Shown here: positions 11,662-43,271 of the stretch, piece after piece
Numbering within the stretch: the first letter of the stretch is position 1
Layout of the letters: each line of letters opens with the position of its first letter
From: Cyanobacterium stanieri LEGE 03274
Lineage (GTDB): Bacteria > Cyanobacteriota > Cyanobacteriia > Cyanobacteriales > Cyanobacteriaceae
Assembly (NCBI RefSeq): GCF_015207825.1
Contig: NZ_JADEWC010000006.1
Span: forward strand, 62,001-126,000
Length of the DNA stretch: 64,000 nucleotides
Reading direction: 5' to 3'
Notes under the pieces: generated by a model
The model's input: only the letters and a program-made list of their open reading frames with translations
Database searches by the model: none
What the model was told of the DNA's origin: nothing
Translations under genes and position numbers: made by a program

Positions 11662-11773
11662 GTTTGGGTAATACTAACAAAAACTAATATCTAGTTTAAC
11701 CTGAGTTCGGGATAAAATTTGGTGAGCACTCTTGCTGATTCGACTACCCTCATCAACTCGGCAAAAAATAATA

Positions 11774-13901: not shown

Positions 13902-16900
13902 ATGACTCCTAGTAATAGCTATTTATTCAGTATCGATTTTAAACTTTATCAAAAAATGAATAGTTTGCCCACGAGACTACGGGCAGATTTACTAGGATAT
14001 TTTGAAGCAATTATTGAAAATCCTTCTTTTGCCAAAAGTATTAATAAAAAAGTAAAAGAGGATGTTAATGTTATTCATCGTATTAATTATAATTACCGTC
14101 TCGAATTAATTGCTATTTCCATAGTACAAAATGAACAAAAAATAATTAAATTTCTGAGTATTTCTGATAAAACAAAATTAAAACAAGCCATATTAGTTAG
14201 TAACAATATTCCTCATCAAATTATTGACATTGATATTAACACTGATCAAAATAAGATTGCTTTAAAACCAGAAGATTTGAAAATTTTTCAAGGGCAAAAT
14301 AGTGTTAGAGTTAATAAAACCGATTTTGAAATTAAGTCCAATGATTTTTATCCCTATATAATTGAAAATCAAGATGATAACCTCAGTTTATCTCTTTTAC
14401 TTTCAGAAGAACAAATAAAAATTATTGAATCTCCATTACCTTTGTTATTAAAGGGTAATGGTAAAATGGGTAAAACAAAAAACTTATTACTAAACGCTTT
14501 TAATGCTAGTGTAAATAATGATTATCAAGATTTAGCATTAGTTAGCACCGATAGAATTAGTCAATATCGTTTAGAAAATGCTTATCAACAATTAACGGAA
14601 AAAAATAATTGCAATTTACGGATTAATAACTATATTGATTTAGTTAGAAACACTGCCCATAGTTTACAATTAATTCCCGAAAATAGCTACAGACGATCGC
14701 ACCTTATTGATTATAATAAATTCAAAGAATTATTTGTCGGAGATTGGGATTTACCAGAAATAGAAGTTATTTATCTATGGGAAGAAATACAATTTGTATT
14801 AAAAGGAAATATTGACTCTTCCTTAGATAATAAAGGATTAATATCCCTTAGTAATTATTTAGAGCAATTTGCAAAAAAACAGAGCCTAGAAGCAGATAAT
14901 ATTTATAGAATTGCTGAAAAATATCAAGACTGGTTAAAAGAGAATAAATATTGGGATGTAGAAGACTTAACCCAAACAGTATTAAACAAATTACCCTCTT
15001 ATTTTAGAGGAGAATATGACATAATTTTTGCCGATGATATTCATAACTTAAGTGACTTATCCCTAAAACTATTATTAAGATTAGTCAAAATAAATCCTCA
15101 ACAGACAAAAGCCAAAGTTATTTTTACCTACGATGAAGCCTTATTACATACACGACAATCAACTCTCTATGAAAAATTAGATAATATATTTGAGATGATT
15201 TTAGAAGAATGTAAACTAGAATCATTACATCATAATTTTCCCAAGCCATTAACCCTAACCGTTGCCCAAACAGATAACTATGAATTGATTGAGTTAGAAA
15301 AAATCATCCTAGACTTAAGTAATAAACTCGAATATCAACCAAAAATTAATCATGTAATTAACACCATTGAAAACTGTCATTGGTTAATATCAAGCCATGA
15401 AAATATTATCTCTGCCCTAGAAGAATTACAGCCCGATACCGTCATTATTGTACCTAGTGTAGAAGAAAAACAAACCCTCCTCAATCAAGTTGCCAAACTA
15501 GATAAAAAAACAGCACAAATATTAACCATTCACCAAATCAATAACTATCAATTCCATCAAGTTATCATTTGGAATTTCTTCACCCATTTTAACCACATCA
15601 ATGCCCAATCCCTATGCCAAATTATTCAAAGATACCTCTATCCTTGTCTTAACACCGTTAACCAAAAAGTCTTTTTCTACGAAAGTGACTACGATATTTT
15701 TGAACATTATCCCATCCTTAACAATTATATTCATAAATCAGGACTAAAGGCGATCGCCCCTATCCTTAACCAAAAAAATCGAGACGAAATCACAAAACTA
15801 GCCCACCACTATCACCAACAAAGCGCCTGGGAAATAGCCCAACAATGTTATCAAACCCTAGGTAACCATAAACAAATAAAATATCTTCAAACCCCCATTG
15901 CCGAATTAGAAGGAAAATGGGATTTAGCAGGAGACTTATGGAATCAACTACAACAATGGGATAAAGCCGTATTAGCATGGCAAGAAATACACCCCCAACT
16001 ATGGTTAGAAAAATGGGCAGACTTAACCCCCGAAGCATGGCAAGAAAAAGCAGACTATCTCGCCCAAAAACATCAATATACCCTTGCCAAAATTTGTTAC
16101 CAAAAATCCAATAACCAAGAAGGCTATATCCATTGTCTGGAAAAAAATAAACAATGGGAAACCATCGCCGACATTTACCAACAAAATAATCAACAAGAAA
16201 AAGCCCAACAAAACTACATCCTAGCCGAAGAAAATTACCTCAAACAACAAAACCTCGCCCCCGCAGGAAAAATGTGGGAAAAACTGGGTATGTGGGAAAA
16301 AGCAGCCCTCATCTGGGAAAAACTAGGTGCATGGGAAACCGCCGCCGAAAATTGGCTAAAAGAAAACAACCCAGAAAAAACAGCCCAATGTTATGAAAAA
16401 AGTAACCATTGGGATAAAGCAGAAATCCATTGGCGAGAATTAAACCAACTTCCCCAAATAGCTATCGCCTGTGAAAAACAAGATAAATGGTTACAAGCCG
16501 CCCAAATTTGGCAACAACTAAAAGAATGGGAAAAGGCAGCCCACTGCTTTACCCAAGCCCAAGAAATAGAATCCGCTGCCCATTGTTATCAAAACGCTAT
16601 GGAGTGGGCAAAAGCCGAAATCTGTTGGCGAGAATTAAACCAACTTCCCCAAATAGCTATCGCCTGTGAATGTCAAAACAAATGGGAAAAAGCCGCCCAA
16701 ATTTGGCAAGACTTACAAGAATGGTTGAGGGCTGGATTTGCATGGGAAATGGCAACCGAAATCTTAAAAGCCGCCCACTGTTATCAAAAATGTCAACAAT
16801 GGCAAAAAGCAGAAAACTGTTGGCGACAACTCAACCAACCCCATCACATCGCCATCACCCTCGAAAAACAAGATAAATGGTTAGACGCAGGAAATATTTG

Positions 16901-19190
16901 GCAAAATTTAGGGGAAATAGAAAAAGCTGCCCTCGCCTACGAAAAAATAGAAGCATGGCAACAAGCCTTGGAATTATGGCAACAACTCCATAACCCTCAA
17001 AAAGTAGCCTTTACCTGTTACCAACTAGAAAAATATGAAACCGCCGCCCAAATTTGGCAAACCCTTGGGCAATGGCAACTAGCAGGAGAAGCATGGGAAA
17101 AACAAAACGACATCCATAAAGCCATTATCGCCTATGAAAAAGGTAATCACTGGCAAGAAATAGAAAGGATTTATCGTCAACAACAACAATGGGCAAAAGT
17201 TGCTTCTGCCTGTGAAAAACAAGAAAAATGGTTAGAAGCAGGAGATATGTGGCAAAAATTACAACAAATTCCCAATGCCTCCCGTTGTTATGAATTAGCC
17301 AGACAATGGCAAAAAGCAGAAAAAGGATGGCGACAATTAAAACAGTGGGCTTGTGTGGCGATATGTTGTGAAAAACAAGGTAAATGGTTAGAAGCTGCCC
17401 AGGCTTGGAAGGAAGTTAACCCCTTGGTAAAATCAGCACTTTGTTACGAAAAAATACAAGATTGGGAAAAGGCAGAAACACTATGGAGAAAAGAATCTAA
17501 TTGGGTAAAGGTGGCTAGAATATGTGAAGCCCAAGAAAAATGGGCAGAAGCCGCCCAAATTTGGCAAGACTTACAAGAATGGGAAAGAGCGGCTAAAATA
17601 TGGGCTAAAATTAATCAACTAGAATTAGCGGCCCCCTGTTACGAAAAAGCCCAATTGTGGCAAGAGGCAGAATATTGTTGGCAACAAGTGGGTAATATTG
17701 ATAACCTTGCCCTTCTGGCTGAATTTCAAGGAGATTGGCAAAAAGCGGCCCACATTTGGGAAGAAGAAAAGCAATGGTTTAATGCTGGAAAGGCTTGGGA
17801 AAAAGCAGAGGAAATCAAAAAAGCAGCCCTTTGTTATCAGCGTGATAATAGTTGGCAGGAGGCACAAAATTGCTGGTTGAGGTTAAATGATTTTCGTCAG
17901 GTGGCAATCTGTTGCGAAAAACAAAGCGCTTGGCAGAATGCGGGGGAGGCTTGGTTAAAGGTAGGGGAGTTGGAAAAGGCTGCTATCTGTTTTGAAAAAG
18001 GAAATAGTTGGCAGGATGCCCAAAGTTGTTGGCAAAAGTTACAAAATTATAGTCAAGTGGCAATGTGTTGCGAAAAACAAAGGGATTGGCAGAATGCGGG
18101 AGAGGCTTGGTTAAAGGTAGAGGAATGGGAAAAGGCGGCTATCTGTTTTCAAAAGGGAAATAGTTGGCAAGATGCCCAAGGTTGTTGGCAGAAATTACAA
18201 AATTATAGTCAAGTGGCAATGTGTTGCGAAAAACAAAGGGATTGGCAGAATGCAGGGGAGGCTTGGTTAAAGGTAGAGGAATGGGAAAAGGCGGCTATCT
18301 GTTTTCAAAAGGGAAATAGTTGGCAGGATGCCCAAGATTGTTGGCAGAAGTTACAAAATTATCATAAGGTGGCCATTTGTCTGCAAAAACTTGATAAATG
18401 GGCAAATGCCGCCCAAACTTGGGAGTCTTTGCAAAATTGGCAAAAAGCAGGAGATGCTTGGCTACAGGCGGAAAATACCGAAAAATCAGCTCTATGCTAT
18501 GAAAATGGCGGTTTTTGGGCAAAAGCTGAGATTCTTTGGGAGAGGCAAGAAAATTGGCTAAAATTAGCATACGTTTGTGAAAAACAGCAAAAATGGCAAA
18601 AAGTTGGTTATGCCTATGAACAAGCCCAAGAATGGGCGAAAGCTGGGGCAATATATGAACAAATTCTAGGATATGCAGAGGCAGAAAAATGCTGGATTGA
18701 GTTAAAGGATTGGCAGAAGGTAGCCTATGTTTGTGAGCAACAATCGAAGTGGCGGGAGGCAGGAAAGGCTTGGGCAATGATTCAAAATTGGCATTCTTGC
18801 GCTTTGGCCTATGAAAAGGGTGGTTATTGGCTCGAAGCCTTCGGGGCTTGGGAAACTGATGGTAATTGGGTTAAAGGTGCGATCGCTCTTGAACAAGGTA
18901 AAATTTATGATCAGGCAGCCCAAATATGGTTAAAAACAGACTTAGAGGATAAACAGGAAAAAGCCGCAGTGAATTATGAATTAGCCGAGCAATGGGATTT
19001 GGCAGAAGAATGTTGGCGCACCATTCCCCGTTGGGATAAAATCGCCCTTTGTTGTGAAAAACAAGGCAAAGAAAAAGAAGATTTAGCCATTGAAGCATGG
19101 TTAAATGCGGGTAATAAATTAAAAGCAGCCAATCTATTACGGCGCGCTGGAAAATGGAAGGAGGCCGCAGGTATTTTTATCTCAAGTTAG
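13902..19190 (+). CDS. giant RelE-like / degenerate SF1 helicase / Trp-rich solenoid protein
   Basis: 1762 residues in three parts. Residues 1-110 resemble the RelE/ParE fold found at the front of bacterial TRANK1-like UvrD proteins (LPTRLRADLLGYFEAI, then HRINYNYRLELI). Residues 165-620 align by eye with that helicase family: Walker A GNGKMGKT at 185-192, the segment YQDWLKENKYWDVEDL, a Walker-B-like IIFADDIHNLS (D378 D379) and a motif-V-like TIHQINNYQFHQVIIW at 542. The DEXQD acidic motif has become DDIHN, and the arginines expected in motifs IV and VI are not seen, so helicase activity is doubtful. From about 636 to the end are short helical repeats with pattern W-x2-A-x3-W/C/Y (AAQIWQQLKEWEKAAHCY). 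No signal or membrane segment is present. A role in large assemblies is inference; the function is unknown. Confidence 0.85.
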   Translation: MTPSNSYLFSIDFKLYQKMNSLPTRLRADLLGYFEAIIENPSFAKSINKKVKEDVNVIHRINYNYRLELIAISIVQNEQKIIKFLSISDKTKLKQAILVSNNIPHQIIDIDINTDQNKIALKPEDLKIFQGQNSVRVNKTDFEIKSNDFYPYIIENQDDNLSLSLLLSEEQIKIIESPLPLLLKGNGKMGKTKNLLLNAFNASVNNDYQDLALVSTDRISQYRLENAYQQLTEKNNCNLRINNYIDLVRNTAHSLQLIPENSYRRSHLIDYNKFKELFVGDWDLPEIEVIYLWEEIQFVLKGNIDSSLDNKGLISLSNYLEQFAKKQSLEADNIYRIAEKYQDWLKENKYWDVEDLTQTVLNKLPSYFRGEYDIIFADDIHNLSDLSLKLLLRLVKINPQQTKAKVIFTYDEALLHTRQSTLYEKLDNIFEMILEECKLESLHHNFPKPLTLTVAQTDNYELIELEKIILDLSNKLEYQPKINHVINTIENCHWLISSHENIISALEELQPDTVIIVPSVEEKQTLLNQVAKLDKKTAQILTIHQINNYQFHQVIIWNFFTHFNHINAQSLCQIIQRYLYPCLNTVNQKVFFYESDYDIFEHYPILNNYIHKSGLKAIAPILNQKNRDEITKLAHHYHQQSAWEIAQQCYQTLGNHKQIKYLQTPIAELEGKWDLAGDLWNQLQQWDKAVLAWQEIHPQLWLEKWADLTPEAWQEKADYLAQKHQYTLAKICYQKSNNQEGYIHCLEKNKQWETIADIYQQNNQQEKAQQNYILAEENYLKQQNLAPAGKMWEKLGMWEKAALIWEKLGAWETAAENWLKENNPEKTAQCYEKSNHWDKAEIHWRELNQLPQIAIACEKQDKWLQAAQIWQQLKEWEKAAHCFTQAQEIESAAHCYQNAMEWAKAEICWRELNQLPQIAIACECQNKWEKAAQIWQDLQEWLRAGFAWEMATEILKAAHCYQKCQQWQKAENCWRQLNQPHHIAITLEKQDKWLDAGNIWQNLGEIEKAALAYEKIEAWQQALELWQQLHNPQKVAFTCYQLEKYETAAQIWQTLGQWQLAGEAWEKQNDIHKAIIAYEKGNHWQEIERIYRQQQQWAKVASACEKQEKWLEAGDMWQKLQQIPNASRCYELARQWQKAEKGWRQLKQWACVAICCEKQGKWLEAAQAWKEVNPLVKSALCYEKIQDWEKAETLWRKESNWVKVARICEAQEKWAEAAQIWQDLQEWERAAKIWAKINQLELAAPCYEKAQLWQEAEYCWQQVGNIDNLALLAEFQGDWQKAAHIWEEEKQWFNAGKAWEKAEEIKKAALCYQRDNSWQEAQNCWLRLNDFRQVAICCEKQSAWQNAGEAWLKVGELEKAAICFEKGNSWQDAQSCWQKLQNYSQVAMCCEKQRDWQNAGEAWLKVEEWEKAAICFQKGNSWQDAQGCWQKLQNYSQVAMCCEKQRDWQNAGEAWLKVEEWEKAAICFQKGNSWQDAQDCWQKLQNYHKVAICLQKLDKWANAAQTWESLQNWQKAGDAWLQAENTEKSALCYENGGFWAKAEILWERQENWLKLAYVCEKQQKWQKVGYAYEQAQEWAKAGAIYEQILGYAEAEKCWIELKDWQKVAYVCEQQSKWREAGKAWAMIQNWHSCALAYEKGGYWLEAFGAWETDGNWVKGAIALEQGKIYDQAAQIWLKTDLEDKQEKAAVNYELAEQWDLAEECWRTIPRWDKIALCCEKQGKEKEDLAIEAWLNAGNKLKAANLLRRAGKWKEAAGIFISS
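17905..18372 (+). repeat. three near-identical 156-base tandem units within the giant gene
   Basis: The word GTGGC(A/C)AT..TG..(G/T)CGAAAAACAA recurs with exact 156-base spacing (its C at 17905, 18061, 18217, with a diverged fourth at 18373). Each unit encodes 52 residues. Units two and three differ at only about ten bases, which points to recent duplication or gene conversion. Confidence 0.85.
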
Positions 19191-23708: not shown

Positions 23709-23822
23709 AATCATATCAAGTCCGCCTGACCACTTATAAATTAGTAATATCAATTAGTTCAATTTATTGAACGAACTACTCTTAGCCGTGTAATTCATTA
23801 TACGGTGGGCAGTACATCTACT
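23709..23822. repeat. dispersed hairpin element, copy 1
   Basis: It starts with AATCATATCAAGTCCG, similar to the end of the 43-kb copy, then has GTTCAATTTATTGAAC (23757-23772) and a second hairpin with arms CCGTGTAA / TTATACGG (23786-23805). The second hairpin differs from the other copies by a compensatory base change. Confidence 0.75.
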
Positions 23823-23863
23823 ATTGCCCATTCCCTGCCTTAACCAGAAAATTTGATAATAAA

Positions 23864-26059: not shown

Positions 26060-26540
26060 ATAATTCAACTAATTAAAAATTTATTTTTAGATATGCTTTT
26101 TAAGCAATTTTGATTATTTTATCGGTTATGCTTTCTTGATTAATGTTCTCTGATCTATATATTTTTTGATCATAATAGTATTAACTTATTAAGGGCGATC
26201 GTCTAATATTAACCATTAAAAAACAAATCATTAACCAAAGTTTATTATCATTCAAACCATCAAATAATAACCTTTAAATTTTAGCTATATTTTTGATCAC
26301 TTATATCTTAATTAACTTGAGTTCAGAATAAAATGTATAATCTTCAAAAATGTAAACCATTGACAACTAACAATAAATAATTGAACTATCATCACCCATA
26401 CTCCCCATCACCCACACTCCCTATCCCTCATATTCCCCCTCAACGTCCCATTTAGTTGCAAAAAAAACGACCCATATTTTGCTATAATCGTCTTGTCGAA
26501 AAAGACCATCGAAAAATTTAAAATATATATAAGATTCAAT
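26060..26540. other. intergenic region upstream of psbH
   Basis: No gene. It holds TAACTTGAGTTCAGAATAA (26313-26331), one copy of a recurring 19-base motif, a pyrimidine-rich CATACTCCCCATCACCCACA-like stretch at about 26395-26440, and the psbH promoter. psbN, often near psbH in other genomes, was not found on either strand. Confidence 0.6.
26456..26490 (+). promoter_or_regulatory. probable psbH promoter, extended -10
   Basis: TGCTATAAT at 26480-26488 matches an extended -10 (TG-n-TATAAT). A TTGCAA lies 21 bases upstream, longer than the ideal spacing for a -35. It would give a leader of about 45 bases before the psbH ATG. Confidence 0.5.
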
Positions 26541-26744
26541 ATGTCACAACGTACCCCTTTAGGCGATTTACTAAAACCCCTTAACTCCGAATACGGAAAA
26601 GTAGCCCCCGGTTGGAGTACCACCCCTTTAATGGGTGTTTTCATGCTCTTATTTTTAGTATTCCTGCTCATTATTCTCCAAATTTATAACTCCTCTCTCC
26701 TTCTTGATGGAATCGTGGTAGATTGGTCAAGTTTAGGAAGATAA
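26541..26744 (+). CDS. psbH: photosystem II protein PsbH
   Basis: Small thylakoid membrane subunit of photosystem II needed for stable assembly and for QA-QB electron flow. The start is the ATG at 26541 ([20 protein letters not shown]), the conserved N-terminus; the frame extends 16 codons further upstream without family similarity. The product is 67 residues with one membrane helix ([20 protein letters not shown]). The chloroplast phosphorylation extension is absent, as in other cyanobacteria. tatA follows 63 bases downstream. Confidence 0.98.
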
Positions 26745-29531: not shown

Positions 29532-29913
29532 TAATTAATAGATTATGACCTATACATTCCGAACTGAGGTTATCTTAGTTCAATTTATTGAACGATAAAC
29601 CGTTAGCCTTGTAATTTATTACAAGGTGGGTGAAGATACAATCCATTTATATTGATAATTGACAATTAATAAATTATGACGCACATATTCCGAACTGAGG
29701 TTATCTTAGTTCAATTTATTGAACGATAAACCGTTAGCCTTGTAATTTATTACAAGGTGGGTGAAGATACAATCCATTTATATTGATAATTGATAATTGA
29801 TGATTAATAGATTATGACCTATATATTCCGAACTGAGGTTATCTTAGTTCAATTTATTGAACGATAAACCGTTAGCCTTGTAATTTATTACACAGTGGGC
29901 AAAGATACAATCC
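29527..29913. repeat. hairpin element in triplicate with 2, 3 and 4 heptamers
   Basis: Three direct copies of one unit. Each has leading heptamers (ATTGATA and variants), then ATTATGAC, GAACTGAGGTTATC, the hairpin GTTCAATTTATTGAAC, the hairpin with arms CCTTGTAA / TTACAAGG, and GATACAATCCATTTAT. The copies start at 29527, 29651 and 29782 and carry 2, 3 and 4 heptamers, so the anchor-to-anchor spacing is 131 and then 138 bases. The right arm of the last copy is decayed (TTACACAG). Confidence 0.92.
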
Positions 29914-30014
29914 ATTTATAACGAATTATCCAATCCATTCTTTTTGATAAAAAGAAAAAAATCATTGCCCATTCTCTGCCCCCATGACACCACTTTTTTA
30001 ATAAACCCCATCCA
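29532..30014. other. intergenic region between glycosyltransferase and tex
   Basis: Almost entirely filled by the triplicated repeat. The remainder (29914-30014) shares CATTGCCCATTCYCTGCC with the region after copy 1 near 23825, so the element may extend that far. No gene is seen. Confidence 0.7.
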
Positions 30015-32156: not shown

Positions 32157-32553
32157 TTATTTTGAGAATAATTTAATGAATAATTCGTAATTGAATATGA
32201 TGGTATTTATTTAAAAAAAAAGTAAAGTAAGTTAATAAATAATACTATGTTTATTCATTTAACTTAAGTTAGGTATAACATTTTTAATATTTTCAAGTTA
32301 AAAATTGATCTGGAAAATTAACAAACTATCAATGTCCAAGCAGTCACCAAAAAAATATAATCATGCTTACAAATATTATCCTGAATTGAGATTATTTATA
32401 TTCAGTGAGATTAAAATTAACTGAGTATGAATTTTGATTCTATGATGAAATTATTTTAAATTTATGATAATAAATCACTACTGACAAAAATAATTTATTT
32501 AAAGTTTGTATAACTCTATATAAATAATTATGGTGATAAAATTATTAATGAGT
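32157..32553. other. intergenic region between tex and the ABC permease gene
   Basis: AT-rich, no ORF. It holds two copies of the recurring motif: TAACTTAAGTTAGGTATAA near 32262 and, inverted, TTATCCTGAATTGAGATTA near 32377. Promoter elements for tex (minus strand) are presumably here but not recognisable. Confidence 0.55.
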
Positions 32554-39453: not shown

Positions 39454-39751
39454 GTTTGGCATAATAGTTGACAGTGTGGGTGATGGGGGGTTTAGGTAAT
39501 AATAATTAAACCTCAGTTCGGGATAACAGTTGTTAAAGCATTGCTGATTTTAAGTATGAAGCATTATTGAATTACAGTAAATGTACACTATTAAAACTAT
39601 TATTAATATTGCCCATTGCCCGTTCTATATTGCCAAACTCCACTAAGAATCATACCTTAATTCACCAACGCCGTTATTAATATTGTGAGGTTTTAGGTAA
39701 CTGGTTGCAGGTAAGCGTTTATTAATTGTCACTTGTCCATTATTTACACCT
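39454..39751. other. intergenic region between convergent wzc-like gene and dndC
   Basis: Carries AACCTCAGTTCGGGATAA (39510-39527, the recurring motif), GTGTGGGTGATGGGGGG (inverse of the pyrimidine-rich repeat), ATTGCCC units near 39610 and a short heptamer run ATTGTCA CTTGTCC ATTATTT at 39725-39745, just before the dndC stop. No gene is seen. Confidence 0.6.
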
Positions 39752-43145: not shown

Positions 43146-43271
43146 ATCATACTAAATCCGTGAATCAAAATATACCTCAGGTCAATTTATTGAACGATAA
43201 ACTATCTGTTAGCCTTGTAATTCATTGCAAGGGGAGTGATGATATGTTTTCTGAATCGGATTTGGCATCAT
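43146..43271. repeat. dispersed hairpin element with terminal inverted repeats
   Basis: Left end ATCATACTAAATCCG (43146-43160) and right end CGGATTTGGCATCAT (43257-43271) are inverted repeats matching at 12 of 15 bases. Inside lie GTCAATTTATTGAAC (43181-43195) and a hairpin with arms CCTTGTAA / TTGCAAGG (43213-43232). Same family as the copies at 23.7 and 29.5 kb. It is MITE-like in form, with no coding capacity. Confidence 0.75.

Follow-up and report, generated by a model that had tools for sequence, protein, structure and literature searches.

Two-hairpin units in the window

The window, a 64-kb stretch of the genome of Cyanobacterium stanieri LEGE 03274, contains five copies of a dispersed element built from two hairpins, every one of them on the plus strand (model R1). 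Each unit has the form TTAG-P1-linker-TTAG-P2-GGG: the palindrome P1, GTTCAATTTATTGAAC, is followed by about 12 nt and then by P2, a palindrome of 20 bp, with TTAG preceding both hairpins and TGGG lying directly 3′ of P2 in most copies. One half of such a unit, the P2 hairpin at 23786-23805, was the subject of a preliminary description, in which the same stem had been recognised at 23.8, 29.6 and 43.2 kb. Each of these stems was confirmed in the sequence: CCGTGTAA-TTCA-TTATACGG (23786-23805), CCTTGTAA-TTTA-TTACAAGG (29607-29626) and CCTTGTAA-TTCA-TTGCAAGG (43213-43232). The change from T-A to G-C at position 3 does affect both arms, and there is one G-T pair each in the 23.8 and 43.2 kb copies.

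The unit at 23.8 kb occupies 23754-23810 (TTAG-P1-linker-TTAG-P2-TGGGC; R1 match at 23748-23826, E 1.1e-14), with P1 at 23757-23772. It is preceded at 23714-23753 by a left terminal inverted repeat of type A (TATCAAGTCCG..), for which a matching right end was not found in this copy. Three further units follow one another in tandem between 29.5 and 29.9 kb, at 29575-29631 (R1 29569-29648, E 7.9e-21), 29706-29762 (R1 29700-29779, E 7.9e-21) and 29844-29900 (R1 29838-29917, E 3.2e-18). The preliminary description had included the P2 of the first of these and neither of the others, of which one (29738-29757) is identical to it and one (29876-29895) has two broken pairs owing to its 3′ arm, TTACACAG. 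The fifth unit lies at 43177-43237 (R1 43171-43254, E 4.2e-13) and its P1, at 43180-43195, has one broken pair (GGTCAAT). Three weak minus-strand R1 matches in the window (E 0.008-0.03) overlap or adjoin these five units. A degenerate P2 pattern with up to two mismatches gave 10 matches in the window, which are five places read on both strands, where shuffled sequences lead one to expect 0.54.

The only Rfam match in the window lies elsewhere than the element: it is RF04353 (Plastid-psbN 5′ UTR), on the minus strand at 26582-26643 (52.3 bits, gathering score 50). A second dispersed repeat, approximately TAACCTGAGTTCGGGATAAAATTT, is found at 11692-11721, 26308-26337, 32255-32284 and 39503-39532, and some units have a left flank similar to it. 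An open reading frame of 1762 codons at 13902-19190 contains many diverged internal repeats at multiples of 39 nt.

Copies in the genome of C. stanieri LEGE 03274

The P1 pattern, allowing up to three mismatches, has 256 matches genome-wide and none in a backward control, although, the pattern being nearly palindromic, some places are counted on both strands (140 matches correspond to 133 places in the stretches examined). A set of 138 copies was recognised by P1. The alignment of 128 of them (A1) leaves out five identical duplicates and five copies whose P2 is deleted, split or degenerate (L037:475, L037:784, L015:1133, L058 and L016:1220), and this second omission favours the pairing figures. 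Of the 138 copies, 128 are intergenic, four overlap an open reading frame and six lie at edges, as judged with a simple ORF caller. Most units of this genome carry the tag TTAG; GTAG is found in plus-strand units beside a transposase gene described below and in a few others. A search for plasmids found nothing.

Within A1, 95.9% of the P2 cells are paired, double-change cells number 58 compared with 18.7 after shuffling, and the covariation score is 0.221 compared with 0.120. The number of P2 pairs changed on both sides, four of nine against 2.1 in shuffled alignments, is not unusual, since 26 of 500 shuffles reach four. The covariation signal, here and in the cross-genus alignment A2 presented below, resides in the cells and in the score. 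RNAalifold predicted P1 from A1, and did not predict P2; a trial outer stem was paired in only 71.5% of cells.

The variation at P2 position 3 (69 G-C, 44 T-A and 6 A-T) is a matter of subfamily differences. When 126 copies were compared with the nearest of six consensus stems, these references being chosen by the analyst and two gapped copies being set aside, 52 departures affected one arm and two affected both. The one-arm changes gave rise to 22 A-C, 14 G-T and 13 other mismatches and to three Watson-Crick pairs. This imbalance indicates that resident copies decay, while mobile lineages keep pairing. Individual copies thus show no sign of selection as RNA.

Side by side with these changes there are hairpin inversions: the P2 loop reads TGAA in 16 of 128 copies and the P1 centre reads AA in 6 of 128, and at L012:1515-1595 the whole of P2 is inverted, matching the type B P2 exactly once it is reverse-complemented. 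The inverted loops suggest that arm-to-arm copying events take place at these palindromes. Such copying can yield compensatory changes without selection, and may have a share in the observed pattern.

Units in other genera

The own-genus model R1 recovered units in 25 of 60 genomes, and across the order 130 of 195 genomes have them, the own genome being counted in both figures. The transposase search and the unit search each used a draw of 195 genomes, and the two draws are taken here as one set. In other families the stem sequences of P1 and P2 differ while the geometry is kept.

This was quantified in alignment A2, comprising 38 units from 21 loci in other genera, which were selected on two features only, the P1 foot on the 3′ side and TATTAGCC; own-genus and duplicate loci were omitted by design. 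Loci brought in by the structure model R1 contributed 10 of the 38 units and transposase loci the other 28. From the 36 motif matches behind the alignment, four chance-like ones, one without P1 and three repeats were dropped. If G-T pairs are counted as pairs, 31 of the 38 units have a P2 with all 9 bp of the stem formed and a loop of 4 nt. Paired cells amount to 93.7% (72.3 after shuffling), double-change cells to 137 (41.3), and the covariation score to 0.587 (0.181, a value of 0.587 being reached in 0 of 500 shuffles), with slid controls at 0.102 or below. Double-changed pairs, 10 of 17 against 8.7 in shuffles, are again not unusual, as 90 of 500 shuffles reach this number. From A2 both hairpins were predicted by RNAalifold unaided, and of the 11 pairs 10 showed double changes. 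The foot of P1, the loop Ts and the linker are nearly invariant across genera, and the TATTAG linker occurs in many of them, bearing in mind that the foot, TATTAGCC and TATTAG belonged to the selection of A2.

The preliminary description had proposed that pairing is kept while sequence changes, and this is borne out by the double-change cells of both alignments; compensatory change supports a structure more strongly than the single window shows.

The ends of the unit are best seen in two other genomes, G045 (n = 18) and G172 (n = 17), in which dispersed copies have unrelated flanks and sharp ends at positions -26 to +30. Among the best-scoring matches of a second model, R2, the conserved block of these copies starts with TTYAG, ends with GGCGGGY and is about 56 nt in length.

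A Y1 transposase that accompanies the units

The genome of C. stanieri LEGE 03274 contains an IS200-like Y1 transposase gene (G000:C2:129833-130171), encoding a protein of 133 amino acids, which sits in an array of 15 units (six on the minus and nine on the plus strand, each with E ≤ 2e-10) within 3.3 kb. In the related genome G004, the Y1 gene is accompanied by seven units. The protein scores above the cut-offs of the IS200/IS605 family model NF033573 (89.3 bits, cut-off 55) and of PF01797 (105.4 bits, cut-off 23), and fails the RAYT model NF047646 (29.9 bits, cut-off 80). Its solved relatives include ISHp608 TnpA (1e-12). It bears the motifs YIKNQKQHH, WQ and NHIH; QKxHH is present in 30 of the first 30 relatives, and the relatives mostly have DHIH or NHIH.

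At a threshold of 1e-15, 63 of the 195 genomes drawn from the order contain relatives of this transposase, mostly with one match per genome. Their surroundings were scanned for units at 30 loci and then at 40 more distant ones. The first 30 had units at 29 loci, and on both sides of the gene at 19, according to the analyst's reading of the table. Model R2 was built with units from 12 of these 30 loci; on the 18 loci outside its training it found units at 17 (best E ≤ 2.5e-7), and at 25 other Y1 loci from nine genomes it found none at E ≤ 0.1. Among the 40 more distant loci, 11 had units and 29 had none. When loci were sorted by protein motif alone, QKx[HY]H followed the catalytic tyrosine at 40 loci, of which 39 had units, and was not found at 55, of which one (L263) had units. 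These 55 are the 29 distant loci, the 25 other Y1 loci and L263, in which the motif is unreadable. A corresponding genome table of 40/40 is partly circular, as 11 loci had been grouped because of their units, and is not relied on. L181 belongs to the transposase group and has no unit. At L190 (G153:C9) the units adjoin a gene whose product reads SVKNQKAHH, with S replacing the tyrosine, and this transposase is possibly inactive.

A phylogenetic tree of 47 Y1 rows, from which 13 duplicate, broken or short rows were left out and in which long branches were flagged, is divided by a branch into the 30 relatives, of which 29 have units, and 17 other rows, none of which has units. The support for this branch is 92/96, just under the level that the tool marks with a star.

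At the level of genomes, 63 have a transposase match at 1e-15, and 60 of these contain units; of the 132 without a match, 70 do. For this comparison p values are only a guide, because the genomes are related and not phylogenetically independent. G002, G011 and G036 hold at least 79, 68 and 47 units, respectively, and have no transposase match at 1e-15. The presence of units therefore does not need a current transposase, and such genomes may have lost the gene or may have a different mover.

A sister group of transposases, mostly Y1 proteins of the YIRNQ type, has a different twin-hairpin unit, in which the second hairpin is tagged by GTAG: YAGTCCGCGNAGGCGGACTT is followed by YGTYTGTGTAG and then by CCGCGATTTCNAATCGCCGG. 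Its motif has 45 matches at 16 of 24 sister-group loci (L272-L288 and L294-L300, with L301 left out of the count), none in 41 loci of the first group and one in the 25 other Y1 loci; as the motif was written after the hairpins had been seen in the same loci, and GTGTAG was likewise selected, the count is descriptive. R2 detected no unit of the first type at sister-group loci. Across the scanned loci, no crossing between unit type and enzyme type was seen.

A MITE layer in the genus

Within the genus, the units ride in elements 106-183 bp long, whose inverted ends are imperfect and fall into two types, A and B. Both ends are clear, that is within two mismatches each, in 48 of 138 copies, one end is clear in 49 and neither in 41. 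Of the 48, 32 have the same three bases on both sides, in all cases TNA, where permutation leads one to expect 14.3 (0 of 10,000 permutations reached 32). A complete copy lies in the window at 43150-43267 on the plus strand: it is 118 bp in length, has type B ends, encloses the 43.2 kb unit and is flanked by a 3-bp target duplication, TCA, at 43147-43149 and 43268-43270.

For one copy, C25:47660, the related genome G004 contains a clean empty site. The comparison for the site C19:41246 is not clean. G003 and G004 lack an element at the sites orthologous to the 23.8 and 43.2 kb copies, but these sites differ too much to serve as clean empty sites. The TNA duplications suggest that a DDE-type enzyme, and not the Y1 enzyme, spreads the MITE in the genus. 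A search for a parent gene with matching ends covered the PF01609 family; it yielded one DDE_Tnp_1 gene, whose surroundings contained no convincing end pair of this kind at up to 5 of 17 mismatches. At G000:C12:26953 (L034), a type A MITE is inserted within the P2 of another unit (GGCCTTGTAA / element / CAATTTATTGCAAG), and other nested insertions appear similar by eye.

Origin of the paired changes

Y1 enzymes of IS200/IS605 and REP systems recognise single-stranded DNA hairpins through a 5′ tetranucleotide, the loop and the shape of the stem. Recognition of this kind predicts that tag and loop are conserved, that the sequence of the stem is free and that resident copies decay, and these predictions match the observations made here. 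We consider, with a probability of roughly three in four, that the unit is the cognate repeat of the Y1 single-strand DNA transposase and a non-autonomous mobile DNA repeat similar to those of REP/RAYT systems. The matched stem changes would then most likely be due to an enzyme that reads the folded DNA, and not to a functional RNA.

The proposed core unit is about 56 nt in length and consists of P1 and P2 in tandem on one strand, each hairpin having a TYAG tag on its 5′ side and a loop of the TTNA type. Its cognate enzyme would be a Y1 (HUH) transposase related to IS200 TnpA, which by analogy with IS200/IS605 and REP/RAYT would bind the unit by reading hairpin shape, tag and loop on a single strand, and would move it by cutting and rejoining. 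Stem sequences would be free to drift as long as moving copies keep their pairing, and finished copies would decay. In the genus, carriage within a MITE with TIRs and 3-bp TNA duplications would provide a second route of spreading.

Because the stems covary and have a stable consensus fold, and because 55 of the 128 intergenic copies lie between convergent genes, one might regard the unit as a structured RNA that is selected in transcripts, for instance a small RNA, a terminator or an element of a 3′ UTR. We consider this quite unlikely. Copies decay on one arm, wobble pairs are not preferred (14 G-T against 22 A-C), sense and antisense orientations relative to the flanking genes are even (36 and 31), and the transposase gene has units around it on both strands; nor does Rfam match the element in the window. 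Nine weak matches were obtained at seven loci of relatives, none at gathering score, and one of MIR7533 at L128 (49.2 bits, gathering score 230) was set aside as a chance match to an inverted repeat. An RNA gene or riboswitch was rejected as the leading reading on the Rfam result, the lack of a wobble preference and the evenness of orientation. The preliminary description had favoured a structure selected as RNA and had offered a DNA hairpin as the alternative. Of its interpretation, the structure stands, the RNA is not supported, and the alternative turns out to be the better half, the unit going with a single-strand DNA transposase. It had also named a lack of excess of compensatory over single-arm changes as the outcome that would speak against it, and among the copies there is indeed no such excess (2 against 52).

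Two other explanations dispense with recognition by the Y1 enzyme. A DDE transposase might move a TIR-bounded element that carries the inner hairpins along, these having no partner of their own, as the matching TNA flanks, the clean empty site and the two types of TIR pairs would all permit. Yet the dispersed units of G045 and G172 end at the unit itself, co-location is with one particular group of Y1 genes, and a TIR-bearing parent gene was not found in the one family tried; that the MITE is the whole explanation is accordingly unlikely. Alternatively, pairing could result from mutation alone, if template switching or cruciform repair copied one arm onto the other in the absence of selection on structure. 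The loop inversions and the inverted P2 of L012 are of the kind expected from such events, but the rarity of two-arm changes among copies implies that correction is slow beside decay, and the P1 foot, loop Ts and geometry shared across genera are left unexplained by correction. We regard mutation alone as very improbable.

The unit explains a large number of the hairpins scattered through cyanobacterial DNA, and provides a case in which hairpin covariation fits DNA, probably in single-stranded form, better than RNA.

Comparison with known systems

The insertion sequences of the IS200/IS605 family have two subterminal hairpins on the same strand, at the left and right ends, together with guide sequences. 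P1 and P2, each with its 5′ tetranucleotide, would match these left-end and right-end hairpins, and the present protein is above the cut-off of this family, which includes IS608 and ISDra2. Unlike in IS200/IS605, the present gene does not lie between P1 and P2; whole units flank the gene, which is mostly present in one copy per genome alongside many gene-less units. A more specific proposal, which we advance tentatively and at somewhat less than even odds, is that the 56-nt unit is a miniature single-strand transposon, with P1 as its left-end and P2 as its right-end hairpin and with TYAG guides of its own, that is moved in trans by a low-copy transposase of subclass 1.2. It would then be among the smallest trans-mobilised transposons known. 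On this proposal, a complete branch of orphan HUH transposases would also run twin-hairpin REP systems in which unit and enzyme coevolve, there being two sister groups and two unit sequences with no crossing between them.

TnpA_Y1 subclass 1.2 has been described as having the motifs WQ, Y---Q--HH and DH[IV]H and a low copy number, and as occurring mostly in Cyanobacteria and Bacteroidetes (Quentin et al. 2018, PMC6006769). In that source, its entry in the REP column is ‘no’ and it is generally without IS-like ends (PMC6006769). The present cyanobacterial protein, with Y---Q--HH, WQ and low copy number, fits this subclass by its motifs alone, and differs in having NHIH instead of the listed DH[IV]H (PMC6006769). 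Two-hairpin units accompany two cyanobacterial groups that share these motifs, whereas the table lists none (PMC6006769). No account of the present unit or of subclass 1.2 repeats was found in the open-licence literature text, figures and supplements apart. The unit, in which both hairpins carry a tag, is a candidate DNA substrate for this subclass.

The system is like REP/REPIN elements and RAYT transposases (PMC3116915, PMC3733652) in several respects: short intergenic palindromes occur in high copy number, a low-copy Y1 gene is flanked by repeats in both orientations in a REPtron-like manner, a 5′ tag precedes the stem, and the hairpin has compensatory changes. REP transposases have the motif Y---NP (PMC6006769), whereas the present protein has Y---Q, as in IS200. 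The present unit differs further in consisting of two tandem hairpins on one strand, and in its tag, which is mostly TTAG, with GTAG in part of the units, where REP tags are GTAG or GTGG. The system would work like REP/RAYT, yet its protein fails the RAYT model.

The SDR4-SDR6 repeats of Nostoc are reportedly tiny mobile hairpins with compensatory changes, which occur in minitransposons and are nested within themselves. They are said to be 21-27 nt in length and to form one structure, with no transposase named and with RNA intermediates proposed. By that description, both they and the present units are cyanobacterial hairpins, the SDRs being smaller and of a single structure. The SDR work, by Elhai et al. 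2008, is cited in PMC3116915.

Tagged palindromes named GTAG-12, GTAG-15 and GTAG-16 have been reported in Cyanothece, Anabaena and Nostoc (PMC3733652). The loops of GTAG-15 are given there as 9-15 bp, compared with four in the present unit, a comparison made by description only. The GTAG-tagged unit of the sister group may be one of these GTAG repeats. In A. variabilis, GTAG-15 dimers lie inside long palindromes (PMC3733652), an arrangement resembling that of the units inside the present MITE.
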